Part shown: piece by piece, positions 1 to 8,012 of the stretch
How the letters are laid out: each line of letters begins with the position of its first letter
How positions within the stretch are numbered: position 1 is the stretch's first letter
Source of the DNA: Candidatus Heimdallarchaeota archaeon
GTDB taxonomy: Archaea > Asgardarchaeota > Heimdallarchaeia > Heimdallarchaeales > Heimdallarchaeaceae
NCBI GenBank assembly: GCA_030603505.1
Contig: JAUVXQ010000050.1
Coordinates: forward strand, 1-8,012
Direction: 5' to 3'
DNA length: 8,012 nucleotides
Notes under the pieces: model-generated
The model's database searches: none
Seen by the model: only the letters and a program-made list of their open reading frames with translations
What the model was told of the DNA's origin: nothing
Position numbers and translations under genes: made by a program

Positions 1-42
1 ACTCTTGTTTGATATAGTTTCATATTCCCGACATAAATCCAT
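1..42 (-). pseudogene. Start of a leftward ORF, possible second transposase copy (partial, cut by window edge)
   Basis: Reading leftward from an ATG at 42-40 gives 14 open codons (MDLCREYETISNKS) before the window ends. The first seven residues and the DNA under them are identical to the start of the decayed transposase at 2359. The following residues are conservatively different (ETISNKS against DKLLDNT), and a 2-nt indel may be involved at the DNA level. This is either the beginning of a second, inverted copy of the same insertion-sequence transposase or a remnant of one. Too little is visible to say whether it is intact. Confidence 0.35.
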
Positions 43-44
43 GC
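21..44. repeat. 24-bp inverted repeat, left copy
   Basis: Positions 21-44 are a perfect reverse complement of 2357-2380; both contain the core ATTCCCGACATAAATCC or its complement. Similarity falls off quickly outside the 24 bp. On the minus strand the repeat contains an ATG and the next six codons (MDLCREY). Confidence 0.9.
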
Positions 45-145
45 TTTATATTTTCTAGGTTATTGTAAATCCTTCTACTTATTATTTAGTAAATCACATT
101 TTGAGTTACTAAATTATAATTCTAACACTTGAAATTAATATAATT

Positions 146-179: not shown

Positions 180-1760
180 TTAATAGGATATGAAGTTTGT
201 TAATTGCCATCCATCTACTATATATCTACCCCAATAAATACGGAATTTAATAGAATAAATAGGTTCAAAAAATGCTATAGATGTTTCAAAGTAAGAAGAA
301 AGAGTAAAAGTGTGAGATGGGGTCGTTTCTTCATTAATATAGATGTACAGATATCTAGGGTAGATATCATTTCTTCGATGAATCTCAAATTTTATTTGAT
401 CTTCATCGGGGTTACCACTCAATTGGAAGTTTAAATCAGAGTTATATGACTTCGGGAAAAAATGATCAGTAAACTTATGAGCATCAATGAAATCTCCTTT
501 TAAATCACCTGAATTTATTAAAGCGGAACAATAATATGTTATAAAGGATGTACGCCAGATTTTTTTAGTCCAAACAAAACCATGATATTGAGTCTGTCCC
601 GGTAACAACCAGTATTCGTAATTAAACGAATCATACCTATCTTGATTTTTTGTCGATTCGTGCCAATCAACACGGAAATATGTTAGGGGTACTTGATTTC
701 CTCCAAGGTTTTTGAAATGATAATCTATATGAATATGTCCACTAAAAAAACCTCCTTCAATATTATCAATGACAATTTCAAAATAAGCATTAGTACTAGC
801 ATGAGTGTCAATATATGGATATATATGAGATGAGATTTCATTCATTTGTTCTAAAGAAGTATCAAACCAAAGATAATATCTATAATAGAAGTCTGTAGGC
901 CAATTTACTACATCAGAATACATTTCGACTTGATTCAGCTGATAAATTACATCACTGATTTTATCTTTAACATTACTGAAATTATTTATAATTGCATCTT
1001 CTAAGGCTTCAAGTCTTTCATATAAGCTCTCCCCTACTAAAGGAAAAGAACCAGGACCAGGGTATACAGCATTGTAGGTTTCTAAATCAAGCTCCATTAC
1101 TACAGAATCAGAAAACATCTTATAACTAAAATCCCACTCTTTGAAAGCAAAACTAGAAATCGTTGTCATTATAGTTAGTAAATCAAAAATAAAACCAACA
1201 GTTTCAAAGGCTTCTTGAACTCTTGCATTTCCCATTGCACTATATGCCCAAGATAAAACATCTGGATAATCCTGTGTTACTAAATCAAATACAGCATCAC
1301 CAATTGGTTTTTCTAAAAATGTATCTGATGCTACTTCTTCCAAAATAGTATCAACCCAATCTTCCCATTCAGATTGTGTTAAAACAAATCCAAAGAAACC
1401 TGGATATAATGTATCAATAAACATATTCATTATGCCTTCAATCATCATTCTCGTTGCTTTTGCTGCCGTAAAACTTTGTCCAATAATTGTAGCTACCACA
1501 CGAGTACCAGTCTTCAATTGCCTGATTGCTGCCAAAAGACCTCCATACTGAATACTGGTTTCTTGATAGAAACAATCATATTGCAAAGTATGTTTAGGTA
1601 CAATTATTCTCTTTAGTATTTCGTTTTTATTTTTTTCTAGATACGTTAAGGCTTCTTCAAAAATGGATTTGGATTTTCTTAGGTTGTATTTCTTGACATC
1701 ATCTTGGAAAGCAAGTAAGAAATTAACATATGCACACATATAATCAATTTCAGCTTCCAA
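180..1760 (-). CDS. Downstream part of an amber-split secreted protein (unknown function)
   Basis: From a TTG at 1760 this frame is open for 526 codons to a TAA. The TTG is probably not a natural start. The frame stays open upstream for 20 more codons, and those residues (including FLSCYSSN and EYIGVNVF) look like real protein, up to the TAG at 1821-1823 that ends the ORF above. The part visible here begins with an acidic segment resembling the end of a caspase-like core (LEAEIDY). It continues with a long, mostly helical region (roughly residues 10-300, including a glycine- and alanine-containing hydrophobic stretch near 85-130). A likely helical/coiled segment (ERLEALEDAIINNF) follows around 245-270. 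The last 200 residues are rich in aromatics and beta-prone, as in an extracellular beta-sandwich. There is no obvious C-terminal membrane anchor. I do not recognise the family from these domains. The long open frame suggests recent interruption, or that the protein is still made. Confidence 0.7.
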   Translation of the reverse strand: MEAEIDYMCAYVNFLLAFQDDVKKYNLRKSKSIFEEALTYLEKNKNEILKRIIVPKHTLQYDCFYQETSIQYGGLLAAIRQLKTGTRVVATIIGQSFTAAKATRMMIEGIMNMFIDTLYPGFFGFVLTQSEWEDWVDTILEEVASDTFLEKPIGDAVFDLVTQDYPDVLSWAYSAMGNARVQEAFETVGFIFDLLTIMTTISSFAFKEWDFSYKMFSDSVVMELDLETYNAVYPGPGSFPLVGESLYERLEALEDAIINNFSNVKDKISDVIYQLNQVEMYSDVVNWPTDFYYRYYLWFDTSLEQMNEISSHIYPYIDTHASTNAYFEIVIDNIEGGFFSGHIHIDYHFKNLGGNQVPLTYFRVDWHESTKNQDRYDSFNYEYWLLPGQTQYHGFVWTKKIWRTSFITYYCSALINSGDLKGDFIDAHKFTDHFFPKSYNSDLNFQLSGNPDEDQIKFEIHRRNDIYPRYLYIYINEETTPSHTFTLSSYFETSIAFFEPIYSIKFRIYWGRYIVDGWQLTNFISY

Positions 1761-1820
1761 TGTGAAAACGTTAACACCAATGTATTCTATAATATTTGAT
1801 GAATAGCAAGAAAGGAAATA

Positions 1821-1823
1821 CTA
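1821..1823 (-). other. In-frame TAG separating the two halves of the secreted protein
   Basis: The TAG is codon 122 counted from ATG 2186. The frame before and after it is the same, without an indel, and remains open to position 180. A single substitution from CAG (Gln) or TGG (Trp) would produce it. It falls between the putative His-Gly strand and the Cys strand, so termination here would remove the presumed active-site cysteine. TAG is a normal terminator of three other genes in the window (stops at 6401-6403, 7651-7653 and 7664-7666). Confidence 0.9.
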
Positions 1824-2186
1824 ATATGCATTTTCCTCTGAATTTATGGTCATACTCAGTTCTTTCCATGAATACATGCTCTTTTTCAACGAAATTCCTT
1901 CTTCATTTCCATGAAATATATATATCTGGTATTCCGCTTCTGTGTGTCGTAACAACTCATTAAGATCATAAGTAATTTGACATTTGTATGGAATATTGTA
2001 TTTATCAAATGAATTACATATTAATGATTTCATCATTTTAGTTGTTGAGGTAGAATCATCAAAGAAAATGTCAACTTTCAAACCTTTCTCAATTTTTATA
2101 CTTGACGAAGTAGAAACTATAAAAGATGATGAAATCATCAATATTAAAAGTCCTAAAGAAATAATTTTTTCTCCTACTTTTTTCAT
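1821..2186 (-). CDS. N-terminal part of an amber-split secreted, possibly caspase-like protein
   Basis: 121 codons starting at ATG 2186. Residues 1-29 form a signal peptide: a basic start (MKKVGEK), a hydrophobic core (about 8-24) and a serine/threonine-rich cleavage region. After that come a beta-strand-like segment ending in acidic residues (KVDIFFDD) and an amphipathic helix. A second strand ends in a His-Gly pair (YQIYIFHGN, H92-G93), followed by a Trp-containing helix (YSWKELSMTI). The ORF then stops at TAG. Immediately past the stop, in the same frame, comes YFLSCYSSN, with C127 where clan CD (caspase-like) folds place the catalytic cysteine on the strand after the His-Gly strand. Together the two parts make a frame of 668 codons. 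The caspase-like assignment rests on motif order only and could be wrong; the family is not firmly recognised. Confidence 0.6.
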   Translation of the reverse strand: MKKVGEKIISLGLLILMISSSFIVSTSSSIKIEKGLKVDIFFDDSTSTTKMMKSLICNSFDKYNIPYKCQITYDLNELLRHTEAEYQIYIFHGNEEGISLKKSMYSWKELSMTINSEENAY

Positions 2187-2330: not shown

Positions 2331-2366
2331 AAATCCACTAATTAATCTCTATTAATGCATGGATTT
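2331..2366. repeat. Imperfect inverted repeat (hairpin) at the left edge of the decayed IS
   Basis: Left arm 2331-2346 (AAATCCACTAATTAAT) and right arm 2351-2366 (ATTAATGCATGGATTT) pair over 13 of 16 positions, with a 3-nt mismatched patch, around a CTCT loop. The right arm runs into the 24-bp repeat and the first codons of the transposase. It may be a regulatory or end structure of the insertion sequence. The remainder of the gap 2187-2358 shows nothing else. Confidence 0.55.
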
Positions 2367-2380
2367 ATGTCGGGAATATG
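2357..2380. repeat. 24-bp inverted repeat, right copy
   Basis: A perfect reverse complement of 21-44. This copy includes the ATG (2359-2361) and the next codons of the decayed transposase (MDLCREY). No clear target-site duplication is visible outside the two copies. Confidence 0.9.
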
Positions 2381-3243
2381 ACAAACTTCTTGACAATACA
2401 CCTCCACAAACTAAAAGAATTTATTCAGATTATGAAACTTTCCTTAAAACACTATTCAATAACAAAGCGACAACAACGAAGAAGGGAGGAAGACTAAGGA
2501 TAGCACCTTTGTGAATAATGGTGGCTTTATGTGTTCTGAGAAGAGTAAGAAACGTTCCTTGTCGGAAACTACAGAGCAAATGGAAAGATGTACATTTCTG
2601 ATTGTTGAAGGGTGGATGAGAACCAAACCTCAGAAATCGACATTTCATGCAGTATAGAGGAGTATCAACCCATTACTAATGGAAAAGTTGATAACAACCT
2701 TAGTACAAAGATGTTCTTCTTATTTTATTAGTCTGGAAGCAGCGGGAGATAGTTTATGAGTGAAAACACGAAAAGGAAGTGTATGACGATTCTTGAAGTT
2801 GGAAAGAGGATTAATACATAAAACTTCTCCCCCTCTTCCGTAAAATACATGTGATCATCAATCTATCCTGTAGAACAATAGCAGCTATCACTCGCTCAAC
2901 CTCAAGTACTCATGACAGTAAATGCTTTAGAATATTATGGAGACAACTACCTCGAACACTCGTTACCTAACTACATAGAATACATTTAGATGTAGCATAC
3001 TGAACAGATAATATCATGGAGTTGTTAACACAAGAAGGCATCCACTTTGTTATTCCTCCAAAAAAGAATGTTAAAGTGCACGGAACAGATAGTCCCCACG
3101 ATAGGATCGCTCGCGTAATTTTGCATTATCCTGGTCTCAGCTGTTATAACCACCACCTTGAACGACGAAGTAGTGTCAAACATGTTTTTGGAATGATAAT
3201 GTTTAAAGAGTGCGTAATACGAGAATGTCTCCCTTCTACCTGA
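2359..3243 (+). pseudogene. Decayed DDE transposase, IS5/IS1182-like
   Basis: One plus-strand frame of 295 codons reads as a transposase throughout but holds about twelve internal stops. The N-terminal part reads MDLCREYDKLLDNTPP, followed by GGRLRIAP, a stop, then IMVALCVLRRV and VPCRKLQ, the usual helical DNA-binding region. The catalytic core shows THDSK around 2911-2925, LDVAY around 2980-2994 (the strand carrying the second Asp) and EGIHFVIPPKKN, then HGTDSPHDR from about 3034 on. The last motif reads ERRSSVKHVFGMI, where these families normally have Glu in place of the Lys, so the third catalytic acid appears lost (GAA to AAA). The length fits an intact transposase of about 300 residues. 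The longest open piece, 3016-3243, is just its C-terminal end. It cannot produce an active enzyme. Family assignment is by motif recall and is not exact. Confidence 0.8.
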
Positions 3244-3429
3244 GATAACACTATTTTATCCAGTTTCCTCTAATATATCTTCAATCTACTCTTCCAGGAG
3301 GTGAAGTGAGCGAAAAAGAATTAATGGACATCCATAAGTAGTAAAGATAACCCTTTTTAAATGAGATAGTATAAATGGTATTGCTGAAAAGAAATCATGT
3401 ATAGAAGTACTTTTATTGCATTTTTTTCT
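3244..3429. other. Remnant DNA after the decayed transposase, no gene seen
   Basis: Stops are frequent in all frames. The stretch probably contains the 3' end of the insertion sequence. No convincing counterpart of the 24-bp repeat was found here; the fragment GGACATCCATAAG near 3326-3340 resembles part of it only loosely. No RNA gene is recognisable. Confidence 0.4.
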
Positions 3430-3453
3430 TTTTCATTTTCATTTTCATTTTCA
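3430..3453. repeat. Four tandem copies of the hexamer TTTTCA
   Basis: Four exact TTTTCA units end on the stop codon of the minus-strand membrane-protein gene. Read on that strand the units are TGAAAA, so the stop codon TGA recurs in frame every second codon, four times in all. It looks like a slippage-prone microsatellite, preceded by a T-rich run at 3421-3430. Confidence 0.9.
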
Positions 3454-3735
3454 AATAAGATCGTTGTAATGTTTTTTGAAATATTCTTCTGCTGTTTTAA
3501 TGTGCTTTTGATTAATGCTTTTCTTATATTCTAAAATAAACATCATTATCAACCCAATTGCAGCTAGAGAAAAAACAATCAATAAGGGAATTACTATACT
3601 TAAACTATTTTCATCCATTATACACAAAGTCAAGATGATAATAATTACACAAATTAAGAATCCAATAATATATGACCCTATTCTATTTTCTGACCGTTTT
3701 ATACGTTTTATTGGTTCTAACATCCACATTTTCAT
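3451..3735 (-). CDS. Small two-helix membrane protein, unknown function
   Basis: 94 codons from ATG 3735 to TGA. A basic N-terminus (residues 1-19, several Lys/Arg) is followed by a membrane helix at about 20-40 (IGSYIIGFLICVIIIILTLC). A very short polar turn (DENS) leads to a second helix at about 45-68, then a charged tail (EYKKSINQKH...YFKKHYNDLI). By the positive-inside rule both ends lie in the cytoplasm, making a simple hairpin. It has its own TATA-like box and stands alone, divergent from fixC. No family is recognised. An overlapping plus-strand ORF (3515-3757) is AT-rich and lacks features, so this strand is preferred. The relation to the neighbouring fix genes is unknown. Confidence 0.6.
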   Translation of the reverse strand: MKMWMLEPIKRIKRSENRIGSYIIGFLICVIIIILTLCIMDENSLSIVIPLLIVFSLAAIGLIMMFILEYKKSINQKHIKTAEEYFKKHYNDLI

Positions 3736-3754
3736 AAATAACCACTTCTTTCTT

Positions 3755-3762
3755 TAATTTAA
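3755..3762 (-). promoter_or_regulatory. TATA-box candidate for the two-helix membrane protein
   Basis: On the minus strand TTAAATTA lies 20-27 nt before the ATG at 3735, which fits a leaderless archaeal transcript. It is overlapped on its upstream side by the palindrome at 3760-3775. Confidence 0.4.
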
Positions 3763-3775
3763 GATAATTATCTTA
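3760..3775. promoter_or_regulatory. 16-bp perfect palindrome, operator candidate
   Basis: TAAGATAATTATCTTA is a perfect dyad in the 149-bp gap between the divergent membrane-protein gene and fixC. It spans 25 to 40 nt before the membrane-protein ATG, overlapping its TATA/BRE position, so a dimeric regulator bound here would block that promoter. It lies about 110 nt upstream of the fixC start. Confidence 0.45.
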
Positions 3776-3854
3776 CAATACAATCTAAATATATATAATT
3801 GATTCATTAATCTGTAAAATACTTTTTCATTTGTTTTTTTGAGATTCCACATTA

Positions 3855-3862
3855 TTTAAAAA
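3855..3862 (+). promoter_or_regulatory. TATA-box candidate for fixC-fixX
   Basis: TTTAAAAA is centred 26 nt before the fixC ATG, so transcription would begin at or next to the start codon. No Shine-Dalgarno sequence precedes the ATG, which agrees with a leaderless mRNA. Confidence 0.55.
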
Positions 3863-3884
3863 ATAGCATGAATCAATATTCCTA

Positions 3885-5177
3885 ATGAGTGATGATTACG
3901 ATTTTGATGTAGCTATAATAGGTGCAGGTCCTGCTGGTACTGCTGCAGCTCTCACACTTGCTAAGGGTGGAATAGAAGTTGTAGTAGTTGAAAGAGGTCA
4001 ATATCCGGGAGCAAAAAATGTTAGTGGTGGAGCTCTTTATGGTCCTGTTATCAACGAATTAATCCCTAATTATTGGGAAGAAGAAGGATTTGAAAGGTTT
4101 CTCACTACTAAAAAAATCTCTTTGTTATCAGATAACAAAGCTGTTACAATTGATATCAACAACCAAAATTTCAAGGAACCACCTTATAACGGTGTAACTG
4201 TTACACGTCCTAAATTTGACCGATGGTTAGCTAAAAAAGCAGAAGAAGCAGGTGCGATGATTCTCCTAGATACAGTTGTTGAAGATTTCGTCTGGGAAGG
4301 GGATCAGATACTTGGTATTAAATCTGGGGACGACATAATAAAATCTAAACTTACTATTATTGCAGAAGGTTCTAGTGCTTTACTTACAGAAAAAGCTGGA
4401 TTGGCTGAATTTCCAAAACCTGAACATTATGCTGTAGCTTTAAAAGAGACTTACGAGCTACATAGTGACGTTATAGAATCAAGATACGGGTTAGACAAAA
4501 ATGAAGGGTTCAGTAATGAAATGCTTGGTTATGCAGAAGGTATTCCTGGTGGAGGGTTCTTCTATACTAATAGAGATACACTCTCTCTTGGGTTGATTCT
4601 GAACCTAAAAAAACTAACCAAAAAGAAACTAAAGTCCACAGATGTTTTTGAGCAATTTAAAACACACCCCTATATCCAGAAACTGATACAAGACGCTAAG
4701 ATGATTGAATATTCTTCTCATACGATTCCTGAAGGAGGATTCAAACATATGTCTAAACTCTACGGAAATGGAGTTTTAGTAGCAGGAGAGGCAGCAGGAA
4801 TGCTGTTAAACGCTGGATTATATATAGAAGGGATGAATTTTGCTCTAGAAGCTGGAAAGATAGCAGGAGAGGCAGCTATAGAAATTCTGAAACTGGGTGA
4901 TTTTTCATCGAATGGGACGAAGATATATGAGAATAAGCTGAAGAAAAGCTTCGTTTATAAAGATCTGAAAACTTTCAAGAGAGCAGCTAAATTCCTTGAT
5001 ACTGACAGAATTTTCACTAAATATCCAGATTTAATTACTGGTTTAATGGAAAAATTACTTACAAATACTGGTAAACCTAGAAAAAGGATAGTGAAAACAG
5101 CTGTTGGTTATGTTTTGAAAACGATGAATATTTTCAGTCTCATTAAAGATGCAATAGGAGGATGGCGATCAATATGA
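3885..5177 (+). CDS. fixC: FixC-type electron-transfer flavoprotein:quinone oxidoreductase (FAD subunit)
   Basis: 430 residues, the usual size for FixC. It should accept electrons from a reduced electron-transfer flavoprotein (EtfAB/FixAB) and, with FixX, pass them to membrane quinone. The N-terminus carries the FAD Rossmann motif GAGPAG (residues 13-18) followed by the acidic strand end VVVVERG and then GAKNVSGGALYG, typical of FixC. The second FAD contact region VAGEAAGMLLNAGLYIEGMN lies at about residues 300-320. The last 80 residues form the family's helical C-terminal region. The downstream gene is the cognate ferredoxin subunit and overlaps by 4 nt. Geranylgeranyl reductases share this fold, but the FixX neighbour and the GAKNVSGGA motif decide for FixC. 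No FixA/FixB genes are in view, so the electron source (fatty-acid oxidation or other dehydrogenases) cannot be told. Confidence 0.9.
   Translation: MSDDYDFDVAIIGAGPAGTAAALTLAKGGIEVVVVERGQYPGAKNVSGGALYGPVINELIPNYWEEEGFERFLTTKKISLLSDNKAVTIDINNQNFKEPPYNGVTVTRPKFDRWLAKKAEEAGAMILLDTVVEDFVWEGDQILGIKSGDDIIKSKLTIIAEGSSALLTEKAGLAEFPKPEHYAVALKETYELHSDVIESRYGLDKNEGFSNEMLGYAEGIPGGGFFYTNRDTLSLGLILNLKKLTKKKLKSTDVFEQFKTHPYIQKLIQDAKMIEYSSHTIPEGGFKHMSKLYGNGVLVAGEAAGMLLNAGLYIEGMNFALEAGKIAGEAAIEILKLGDFSSNGTKIYENKLKKSFVYKDLKTFKRAAKFLDTDRIFTKYPDLITGLMEKLLTNTGKPRKRIVKTAVGYVLKTMNIFSLIKDAIGGWRSI
5156..5161 (+). promoter_or_regulatory. Ribosome binding site for fixX
   Basis: AGGAGG ends 12 nt before the ATG at 5174 and directly abuts another in-frame ATG at 5162. 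The spacing makes 5174 the usable start, four codons shorter than the longest reading. It is the one clear Shine-Dalgarno sequence noticed, and it serves the internal gene of an operon, while fixC itself looks leaderless. Confidence 0.6.
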
Positions 5178-5482
5178 GCAAAACAGAGAAAGTAATGACT
5201 ATTGATGAAAAACTATCTTTGACAAAATTGACAACGGATAAAAATTACGAGCATATTACAGTAAACCAGGAAATATGCAGAAAATGCAAGACGTTCGATT
5301 GCGTTTATGCATGCCCTGCAAACTGCTATAAATTCTCAGAAGGAGAAGAAGTAGATAGTCCAATAATTTTTGATTACGCTCCCTGTTTGGAATGTGGAAG
5401 TTGTCGTATTGTGTGTCCTCATGGTAGTGTTGACTGGCATTATCCTAAAGGTGGTTTTGGAGTAGAGTACAAAAATAGTTAA
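5174..5482 (+). CDS. fixX: FixX ferredoxin-like subunit of ETF:quinone oxidoreductase
   Basis: 102 residues from ATG 5174, overlapping the fixC stop as ATGA. It is the iron-sulfur partner of FixC. The family signature is clear: CLECGSCRIVCP at residues 71-82, then VDWHYPKGGFGVEY at 86-99. There is a first motif C35-x2-C38-x4-C43-x3-C47-P and a second C71-x2-C74-x2-C77-x3-C81-P, enough for two [4Fe-4S] clusters with cysteines exchanged between motifs as in bacterial-type ferredoxins. The E. coli protein, as I recall it, keeps only part of the first motif. The small protein likely docks on FixC at the cytoplasmic membrane face. An alternative start at 5162 would add four residues (MAIN). Confidence 0.9.
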   Translation: MSKTEKVMTIDEKLSLTKLTTDKNYEHITVNQEICRKCKTFDCVYACPANCYKFSEGEEVDSPIIFDYAPCLECGSCRIVCPHGSVDWHYPKGGFGVEYKNS

Positions 5483-5494
5483 CTCCTTTCACTC

Positions 5495-5500
5495 TTTTTT
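5495..5500 (+). terminator. Oligo-T terminator candidate after fixX
   Basis: TTTTTT starts 13 nt after the fixX stop in a pyrimidine-rich stretch (CTCCTTTCACTC) and precedes the promoter candidate of the next gene. It is consistent with intrinsic archaeal termination. Confidence 0.5.
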
Positions 5501-5508
5501 CAGATAAG

Positions 5509-5516
5509 ATTTAATA
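5509..5516 (+). promoter_or_regulatory. TATA-box candidate for the zinc-ribbon gene pair
   Basis: ATTTAATA is centred about 33 nt before the ATG at 5546. This would give a leader of only a few nucleotides. The presence of a T-tract just upstream supports a new transcription unit here. Confidence 0.4.
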
Positions 5517-5545
5517 ACCAGTTAGTATATTTTGTTTTGAGATAG

Positions 5546-6403
5546 ATGAGTAATTTTGATACGTTAAAAAAACAAATCCCGAAGATAATTGTTGGGTCAA
5601 TCAAGTACTCTGATTACAATAGAATTCCAGAAGAACACCCGGTTAAAAACCGTGACGCATTATTTCAAATCCTTAAAAGATCTATAACAGCAGGATCAGA
5701 AGGAGTAGTATTTTATCTTTATAACGAGGAATTTGTAGAGGTACTCAATCTATTCCACAAAGAGAATCCTAAAATTGTTAAAATGTTGATTCTAAAATAC
5801 GAGAAACTCGACTATCTTGTTAATTTGTTAGAAGGTCTTAAATTCAGACCTAAAGTAATTTTCTTAGATTTCTCAATAACTGATCAAAAAGATATTAGTT
5901 TATTAGAGAAATATTCTTCAAATATCTCAAAATACACAGAGAATGTAGGCATTTATACCATAGAACCAATAGGCACAGTCTCTATTTATATCACTTCTAT
6001 TCCTGAAATACGTGTTTACCTTTTCCCCTTCAACATGCTAGGTATAGGACTGCAGAACCGAAGTATGCTTGAGATGATTGTCAACTCAACGGAAAATATC
6101 TATGTCACAAGCAATCCACTAGCTGATAGCAGATTGAAACCTCAACAAGCTTTTAATTATATTGGCACTCATAAAGTTCATGGGACTCTTATCGATCTTG
6201 AAGAAGCTGATGTGATGCTTGAAACAGTAAAATTCGCTAAATACTATTTTGAAACACACGACTTCCTACAGATTGCGCTTGAATTTGAGGATCTTACTGA
6301 AATATGTGAAAATTGTGGTTTAGGAATGCATCGATATTATCCACCAACAGGAGGTAGTTGGTTTTTCTGCCCCCAATGTCAAATTAAGAAAGAAAGAAAG
6401 TAG
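5546..6403 (+). CDS. Predicted TIM-barrel-like protein with C-terminal zinc ribbon
   Basis: 285 residues. The first 240 alternate hydrophobic strands and helices: KIIVGSI near 13-19, GSEGVVFYLY, VIFLDFSI, VGIYTIEP, VYLFPFN. Later comes ENIYVTSNPLADSRLKPQQAF, then a helix containing LEEADVMLETVKFA. The pattern, especially the NPL-x-x-x-RLKP-x-x-AF segment, resembles the late strands of aldo-keto-reductase-type TIM barrels. I see no convincing catalytic tetrad, so enzymatic activity is not claimed. The end holds a zinc ribbon, C254-x2-C257 and C275-x2-C278, suited to binding nucleic acid or protein. The gene has its own TATA candidate and is followed after 5 nt by the RING protein gene, so the two are probably cotranscribed and may act together. 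No family name is recognised. It ends with TAG. Confidence 0.65.
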   Translation: MSNFDTLKKQIPKIIVGSIKYSDYNRIPEEHPVKNRDALFQILKRSITAGSEGVVFYLYNEEFVEVLNLFHKENPKIVKMLILKYEKLDYLVNLLEGLKFRPKVIFLDFSITDQKDISLLEKYSSNISKYTENVGIYTIEPIGTVSIYITSIPEIRVYLFPFNMLGIGLQNRSMLEMIVNSTENIYVTSNPLADSRLKPQQAFNYIGTHKVHGTLIDLEEADVMLETVKFAKYYFETHDFLQIALEFEDLTEICENCGLGMHRYYPPTGGSWFFCPQCQIKKERK

Positions 6404-6408
6404 CAAAG

Positions 6409-6999
6409 GTGATAGAAATTTCACAGTGCCGTTTTTGTGAGAGAGAAATACCTGGCGAGAGTAAATTTTGTCCATATTGTGGTGATGAAACACCTATCTA
6501 TAAACCACTTATGCATGGAGCAACATCAATTATCTCAATGATAAAATCAAGTTATGCAGAATCTGCTCCCAAGATTAAGGAAGAAGTAGCAAAAATTATC
6601 TCAAAGTTTGACAAAAATATTAAATCAGTTAATTGGTTACCTTCTTTTGTCAATAAACAAAAAATCCAGAATATTTTACAGAATCTACAAAAAAAAGTTG
6701 AAGTAGAAGAAGACAGAGATCAAGTCAGGGACTTGGAGGATTGGGTTCAACATATAGAAAAAACAATCTCAGGAGATAAGTGTATAATCTGTTTACAAAA
6801 GTTTAATATTGATAATGAAAAGCAAGTAGAGGTAGCTTTATGCCCTAACTGTAACTATGCAGGACATTCTGATCATTTCCATTTATGGCTTGAACAAAGA
6901 TCTTCATGTCCTATATGTCGAGTAGAGTTGAAAGATGAGAACTTGCTTAAAGGGAATCTAATCAGAAAAAATGACGAAATAGTTTTTTTGGGAACATAA
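6409..6999 (+). CDS. Zinc-ribbon/RING-type domain protein, possible ubiquitin-ligase-like
   Basis: 196 residues from a GTG that lies 5 nt after the previous stop. An N-terminal zinc ribbon is formed by C7-x2-C10 and C21-x2-C24. A charged helical middle (about 40-120, with KIQNILQNLQKKVEVEEDRD) follows. The C-terminal RING-like cross-brace has C125-x2-C128, C145-x2-C148, H153-x2-H156 and C167-x2-C170, with W160 and the typical CPIC ending. RING domains of this kind recruit ubiquitin-conjugating enzymes in eukaryotes, and several Asgard archaea encode RING proteins alongside E1, E2 and ubiquitin-like genes. None of those is in this window, so a ligase role is inference; structural or nucleic-acid-binding zinc fingers are the alternative. 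The tail (ENLLKGNLIRKNDEIVFLGT) is short. A T7 run at 6983-6989 lies inside the last codons. Operon with the gene at 5546. Confidence 0.75.
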   Translation: MIEISQCRFCEREIPGESKFCPYCGDETPIYKPLMHGATSIISMIKSSYAESAPKIKEEVAKIISKFDKNIKSVNWLPSFVNKQKIQNILQNLQKKVEVEEDRDQVRDLEDWVQHIEKTISGDKCIICLQKFNIDNEKQVEVALCPNCNYAGHSDHFHLWLEQRSSCPICRVELKDENLLKGNLIRKNDEIVFLGT

Positions 7000-7663: not shown

Positions 7664-8012
7664 CTAACACTCTGATTTTTGACTATTTAGTAAGTCTCTA
7701 AATTCTTTAGCTTTCTTACCGGGATTATCAGAATATATTAACATCCTACCAACGTTAACAATTGTTTTTGAATCGAAATAACTCAAAACTGTTTTAGCAT
7801 TACCGCCTTGAGCTCCTACACCAGGAACAAGAGCAAATATCTCTGACCCTACTCTATCACGTATTTTGCATATATCATCCTCTTTTACATGTCCAGTAGC
7901 ACCAATAACTATACCGTCAGCTCTTGAATTTTTACATTTTTCAGCAATGTGAAGAAATAACGGAGTCTTTTCAACTAAAGCTTGCTTCTGAATTATAGCT
8001 TGAGGATTAGAC
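7664..8012 (-). CDS. pyrF: Orotidine 5'-phosphate decarboxylase (C-terminal part, cut by window edge)
   Basis: 116 codons before a TAG are visible; the start lies beyond the right edge. The enzyme decarboxylates OMP, the product of the neighbouring PyrE, to UMP. Diagnostic segments are ADGIVIGATG, the phosphate-gripper motif ALVPGVGAQGG, and the closing TIVNVGRMLIYS, where the Arg contacts the phosphate. The PGVGAQGG wording fits the longer bacterial-type (class 2) subfamily at least as well as the shorter archaeal one, but with the N-terminus and the catalytic Asp-Lys-Asp region outside the window this is left open. Tail-to-tail arrangement with pyrE; the two transcripts must overlap at their 3' ends because no terminator fits into 10 nt. 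Confidence 0.9.
   Translation of the reverse strand, partial: SNPQAIIQKQALVEKTPLFLHIAEKCKNSRADGIVIGATGHVKEDDICKIRDRVGSEIFALVPGVGAQGGNAKTVLSYFDSKTIVNVGRMLIYSDNPGKKAKEFRDLLNSQKSEC

Follow-up and report, generated by a model that had tools for sequence, protein, structure and literature searches.

How should a gene be read whose frame is interrupted by one stop codon and is otherwise open? This question is raised by a reading frame on the minus strand of the window, the whole stretch of DNA analysed here, which is an entire contig of 8012 bases from an uncultured member of the Heimdallarchaeota, a class thought to be close to eukaryotes. From 2186 to 180, the frame consists of 121 codons, a TAG, 546 codons and a terminal TAA. 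Translation confirmed two statements of the preliminary description of this DNA, namely that the TAG at codon 122 (1821-1823) is the sole internal stop of the frame beginning with the ATG at 2186, and that no further stop follows in the next 546 codons. A fresh nonsense mutation, a sequencing error, and programmed readthrough or decoding of TAG by pyrrolysine or a suppressor tRNA had been put forward as explanations. Here, we argue that the frame is probably an accessory caspase-like gene hit by a recent nonsense mutation, and as such a very young pseudogene.

Results

The 5' part of the frame (1824-2186, minus strand; 121 codons) starts with a hydrophobic, signal-like N-terminus, as judged by eye, and contains the predicted catalytic His at codon 92 (1911-1913) within a His-Gly motif. 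The 3' part (180-1820, minus strand; 546 codons and the TAA) contains the predicted catalytic Cys at codon 127 (1806-1808) within the motif SCYSSN, five codons past the TAG, followed by a long helical middle, which is based on a low-confidence model of the homologue in G001, the genome of Candidatus Heimdallarchaeota MAG C4.bin.22, and by a C-terminal part. The His and the Cys form a dyad that is conserved in the family, and the TAG separates the two; the earlier proposal that a cysteine past the stop completes a His-Gly/Cys pair therefore holds. By a simple reckoning, an open run of 546 codons in AT-rich DNA is well past chance expectation, and the post-TAG part aligns with homologues in G001, G006 and G019 with 54, 59 and 39% amino-acid identity, respectively. 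For these two reasons, the part past the stop is real coding sequence.

The homologous sequences of G001, G006, G019 and P0005 continue unbroken over the TAG site; the G006 copy is split over two contig ends, and the near-identical P0005 bridges both pieces. At the TAG column, Gln is found in all four of these sequences (CAA, CAA and CAG in G001, G006 and G019, respectively), and Tyr in the G002 protein, which is more distantly related. The database contains a predicted protein (P0001) of 519 residues that begins at a downstream Met, which would fit two separate genes, one for a 121-residue protein and one for a protein of approximately 519 residues. Against this, the homologues cross the junction, and none was seen to end at codon 121: those with sequence there run on. 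In addition, there is no start codon between the TAG and the Cys, so that neither product alone can carry both dyad residues. We consider two genes very improbable, and the sequence comparisons support one interrupted gene, as had been suggested. Its relatives are few. A large protein search with the 546-residue part as query found P0002 and P0003 besides itself, further large protein searches returned one relative and three relatives, one of them new, and matches, two of them weak, were present in 5 of the 58 genomes of the class.

The description of the product as secreted and caspase-like can be kept in its second half, owing to the conserved His/Cys dyad; its first half relates to the hydrophobic N-terminus seen by eye, from which we regard the protein as probably exported. 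In total, 82 matches to the family were found in 34 of 58 related genomes, with the highest numbers in G034 (14), G051 (8), G028 (7) and G035 (7), some of them partial. Among the alignment rows with a residue at the respective position, the His is conserved in 43 of 44, the following Gly in 35 of 44 and the Cys in 43 of 44, where the window itself, two pairs of duplicates and five members with an interruption are counted among the rows. Lower-scoring matches to the domain are also seen in open frames of approximately 1600-1800 residues in G030, G034, G040, G041 and G042. No Peptidase_C14 match was obtained for two pieces of the window (E 1), three relatives (E 1) or 36 family members (E 0.1), with the HMMER filters removing most matches above 0.1, and Peptidase_C25 was touched weakly by two of the 36 members (best E 0.0011). 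Searches of the window pieces against Pfam, NCBIfam and PDB sequences gave sub-threshold matches or none; the family alignment had no match in the PDB at E 10 and scattered weak matches, none of them consistent, in Pfam and NCBIfam. In Foldseek searches, flavodoxin-like chains ranked first. Literature searches for caspases in Asgard archaea yielded nothing evidently about this family among the matches listed, those for metacaspases in Heimdallarchaeota nothing related among the matches listed, and a search for peptidase C25 in Heimdallarchaeia as well as searches on pyrrolysine found nothing. The conserved His-Gly and Cys residues mark the family as caspase-like, and its members are putative proteases.

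A lone TAG in a frame that is otherwise intact could be decoded as an amino acid, either as pyrrolysine or by a suppressor tRNA with a CUA anticodon. Pyrrolysine use has been published for one Asgard class, the Sifarchaeia, and according to the passages on recoding in that study, it is restricted to this class among the Asgard archaea (PMC9723677). The window organism resembles the pyrrolysine-decoding Sifarchaeia in being an Asgard archaeon with an in-frame TAG in which TAG is also a common terminator: it ends three of the seven other genes in the window, and the terminator TAG at 6401-6403 is retained in the closely related genome G003. As 21% of the genes of Sifarchaeia end in UAG and pyrrolysine is encoded nonetheless (same passages of PMC9723677), the use of UAG as a terminator alone is no proof against amber decoding. 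The window organism differs from the Sifarchaeia in that PylS was found above the cut-off in none of 58 related genomes, a set that includes G003 and is made up of genomes other than the window's own. This contradicts the pyrrolysine option. Weak PylS matches occurred in 47 of the 58 genomes; among 14 control genomes, 13 had matches and one of these was above the cut-off. The same passages of PMC9723677 describe selenocysteine decoding as lost in Heimdallarchaeia and Odinarchaeia, and for Atabeyarchaeia and Freyarchaeia, it is stated in a section of PMC11291895 that pyrrolysine is not encoded. Regarding the suppressor tRNA, none with a CUA anticodon was present at the 17 places in G003 that matched our single pattern, which covers tRNAs not split by introns; the reversed control pattern matched 24 places, and ARAGORN reported one tRNA at the candidate places, a Ser tRNA with the anticodon GGA. 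The window itself gave no hit in Rfam or tRNA scans. Against dedicated decoding, it also counts that other family members are interrupted by TGA, TAA or TAG at other places. We regard dedicated decoding of the TAG by either route as exceedingly improbable.

The age of the stop was approached with a four-taxon codon model, in which 541 post-TAG codons were used, stops were treated as missing data and the boundaries of the parts were placed to within a few codons in the relatives. For the window branch, omega past the TAG was 0.061 compared to 0.123 for the background, and setting omega to 1 cost 12.0 log units. The corresponding values for the 129 codons ahead of the TAG were 0.169 and 0.222, and omega = 1 cost 2.6 log units. 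No relaxed selection past the TAG was detected on the window branch with this model. When a neutral phase was added at the end of this branch, the best-fitting time was 0, and the log likelihood dropped by 1.7 at 0.010 and by 3.5 at 0.020 substitutions per site. From the fact that all 546 codons are free of another stop, a 95% bound of 0.025 substitutions per site was obtained. The post-TAG sequence fits purifying selection with zero to about 1% neutral change since the loss. Purifying selection without a neutral phase means that the lesion is very young or that the gene is still read, and the missing relaxation is expected of a very recent lesion and equally of a translated gene. Between the window and G003, 54 of the 1290 fixC sites are different, including 40 at third positions, so that the stop can be younger than the split between the two.

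The orthologue in G001 is broken as well, by a lone TGA (L001:7522-7524) at a position occupied by Trp in the window, G006 and G019, and its frame continues past the TGA to a TAA at 8007. On the G001 branch, omega past the TGA was 0.231 compared to 0.067, with a gain of 5.5 log units, which fits a copy that has been decaying for longer. Two of the four orthologues compared (window, G001, G006 and G019) are thus broken; this is more than expected if such stops are rare and counts against a recent chance mutation in the window. In the wider family, a stop is found inside 7 of 53 matched places and inside 8 of 82 matches, with the G001 orthologue in addition, and the stops are TAG, TAA or TGA. 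The FixC-like genes used as control have a stop in 1 of 35 matches; the two sets differ in thresholds and lengths, and we do not claim an excess. In five lone-stop copies (the window, L001, L044, L057 and L059), the stop takes the place of Trp or Gln and could have arisen by a single C:G to T:A transition, a class to which 22-45% of nonsense changes would be expected to belong under a simple model. Further lone-stop places are G034:C137:4073, G034:C153 and G023:C186, and L066 (G011:C103) matches in two frames in turn, a seeming frameshift that is absent from the stop count.

Near-cognate reading of UAG can insert Gln. Termination at the window stop might be leaky, with a near-cognate Gln-tRNA reading the UAG, some full-length protein being made and the stop damping a potentially harmful protease. 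The purifying selection past the stop and the Gln of the homologues, which is the residue that such reading would insert, speak for this, and the UGA at a Trp position in G001 and the UAA in L059, at a Gln position as judged by its relatives, agree with the idea. However, among the five interrupted members read, L044 and L058 have a common TAG at one conserved Trp column, and the UAGs at Trp positions in L044, L057 and one of the stops of L058 could not be restored in this way. Furthermore, the stop column of the window is found in no other of the 45 alignment rows, even though L044 and L058 share theirs, and the RNA that begins at the TAG has no more stable a fold than shuffled sequences (z -0.45; 66 of the 200 shuffles were equally or more stable). 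Leaky termination in the window is very improbable on this evidence. We consider it likewise very improbable that members of this caspase-like family in Heimdallarchaeota are silenced by single leaky stops (UAG and UAA at Gln, UGA at Trp positions) at which near-cognate tRNAs restore the native residue. If true, such stops would act as a safety catch at the level of translation, holding back a protease that might harm its own cell.

A different possibility is that most cells carry an intact gene and that the stop arose as an error of sequencing or assembly, or entered the consensus as the allele of a minority strain. The protein database lists the sequence from one contig only (P0001), and the best-fitting neutral time of zero agrees with such an origin. 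On the other hand, substitution errors are rare in assembled short reads, and the neighbouring open reading frames show no break, by eye or in a Pfam scan. We assign this explanation a small but appreciable probability.

The gene lies in a block of DNA that adjoins the fixC operon. An identical sequence of 25 bases is present in inverted orientation at 20-44 and 2357-2381 (29 bases at 97%), and related elements (L081 and L074) suggest that it represents the end of an insertion sequence at which the transposase starts: 2353-2381 (plus strand) is probably the 5' end of an insertion-sequence relic, and its inverted copy at 20-48 (minus strand) probably that of a second copy, which runs off the window and of which 48 bases are seen. 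The alternative that the repeats delimit a transposon with the gene inside was dropped, as the related elements point to the transposase-start end. The 25-base sequence was absent from 58 genomes with three mismatches allowed, and an exact copy was absent from viral contigs. A decayed transposase relic (2440-3288, plus strand) aligns over 300 residues, at 34% identity, with an open frame of 320 amino acids in G003, and its own frame is interrupted by 14 stops from residue 34 to residue 316; the decay noted previously is real, the count of about twelve stops was too low. The stretch 3429-6708 (plus strand) is collinear with G003 at 95% identity, and we take the window and G003 to be of the same or nearly the same species. 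Upstream of 3429, G003 has etfA (fixB) and the window has the island. etfA is also located upstream of fixC in three of five other relatives, and the other two had no match in the flank examined. The relic (2440-3428) is old by its 14 stops, yet is missing at this site in the 95%-identical G003. A small protein encoded at 6409-6999 has a zinc-ribbon match and, slightly below the curated cut-off, a RING-like match (zf-RING_2, 27.0 bits compared to 27.3). G003, which is fragmented (contig numbers up to C277) and of unstated completeness, has no match to the gene or the family, from which the gene is probably accessory. The context of the block and its absence at the site in G003 indicate that mobile DNA probably brought the gene in or relocated it.

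Discussion

Among the options raised at the outset, a fresh nonsense mutation is best supported, owing to the low omega and the best-fitting neutral time of zero, and a disabling stop stands where the homologues have a sense codon. We propose that one recent nonsense change at a Gln position cut a single gene between the dyad halves. This gene lies in a block bounded by two putative inverted insertion-sequence ends, and its full-length product, which is probably exported, would consist of a caspase-like (His/Cys) domain at the N-terminus, a long helical middle and a C-terminal part. The 121-residue product would have the His and lack the Cys. With the dyad cut and no start codon between the stop and the Cys, this accessory gene would be a very young pseudogene, and we infer that the stop is real in the organism and abolishes activity. 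The intact part past the stop would look alike in a gene that is still translated, which counts against the pseudogene reading. All sequences compared are from MAGs of unstated completeness, and the rate test comprised four orthologues.

The stop itself is most likely an everyday mutation. The broken family may matter more, as the gene belongs to a little-known caspase-like family without a consistent Pfam or NCBIfam match, which is relevant to the history of caspase-like enzymes and to the speed with which such genes are gained and lost. When set beside the clan CD proteases of prokaryotes, that is orthocaspases, metacaspases and CHAT proteins, 36 family members matched neither Peptidase_C14 nor CHAT at E 0.1. 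With regard to its surroundings, the locus differs from composite transposons in that the right copy is decayed and the left one continues past the edge of the window, so that movement and target duplication are conjectural here. It does resemble accessory genes flanked by insertion sequences in a composite-transposon-like manner, as one and the same 25-base sequence is found, inverted, on both sides of the gene.
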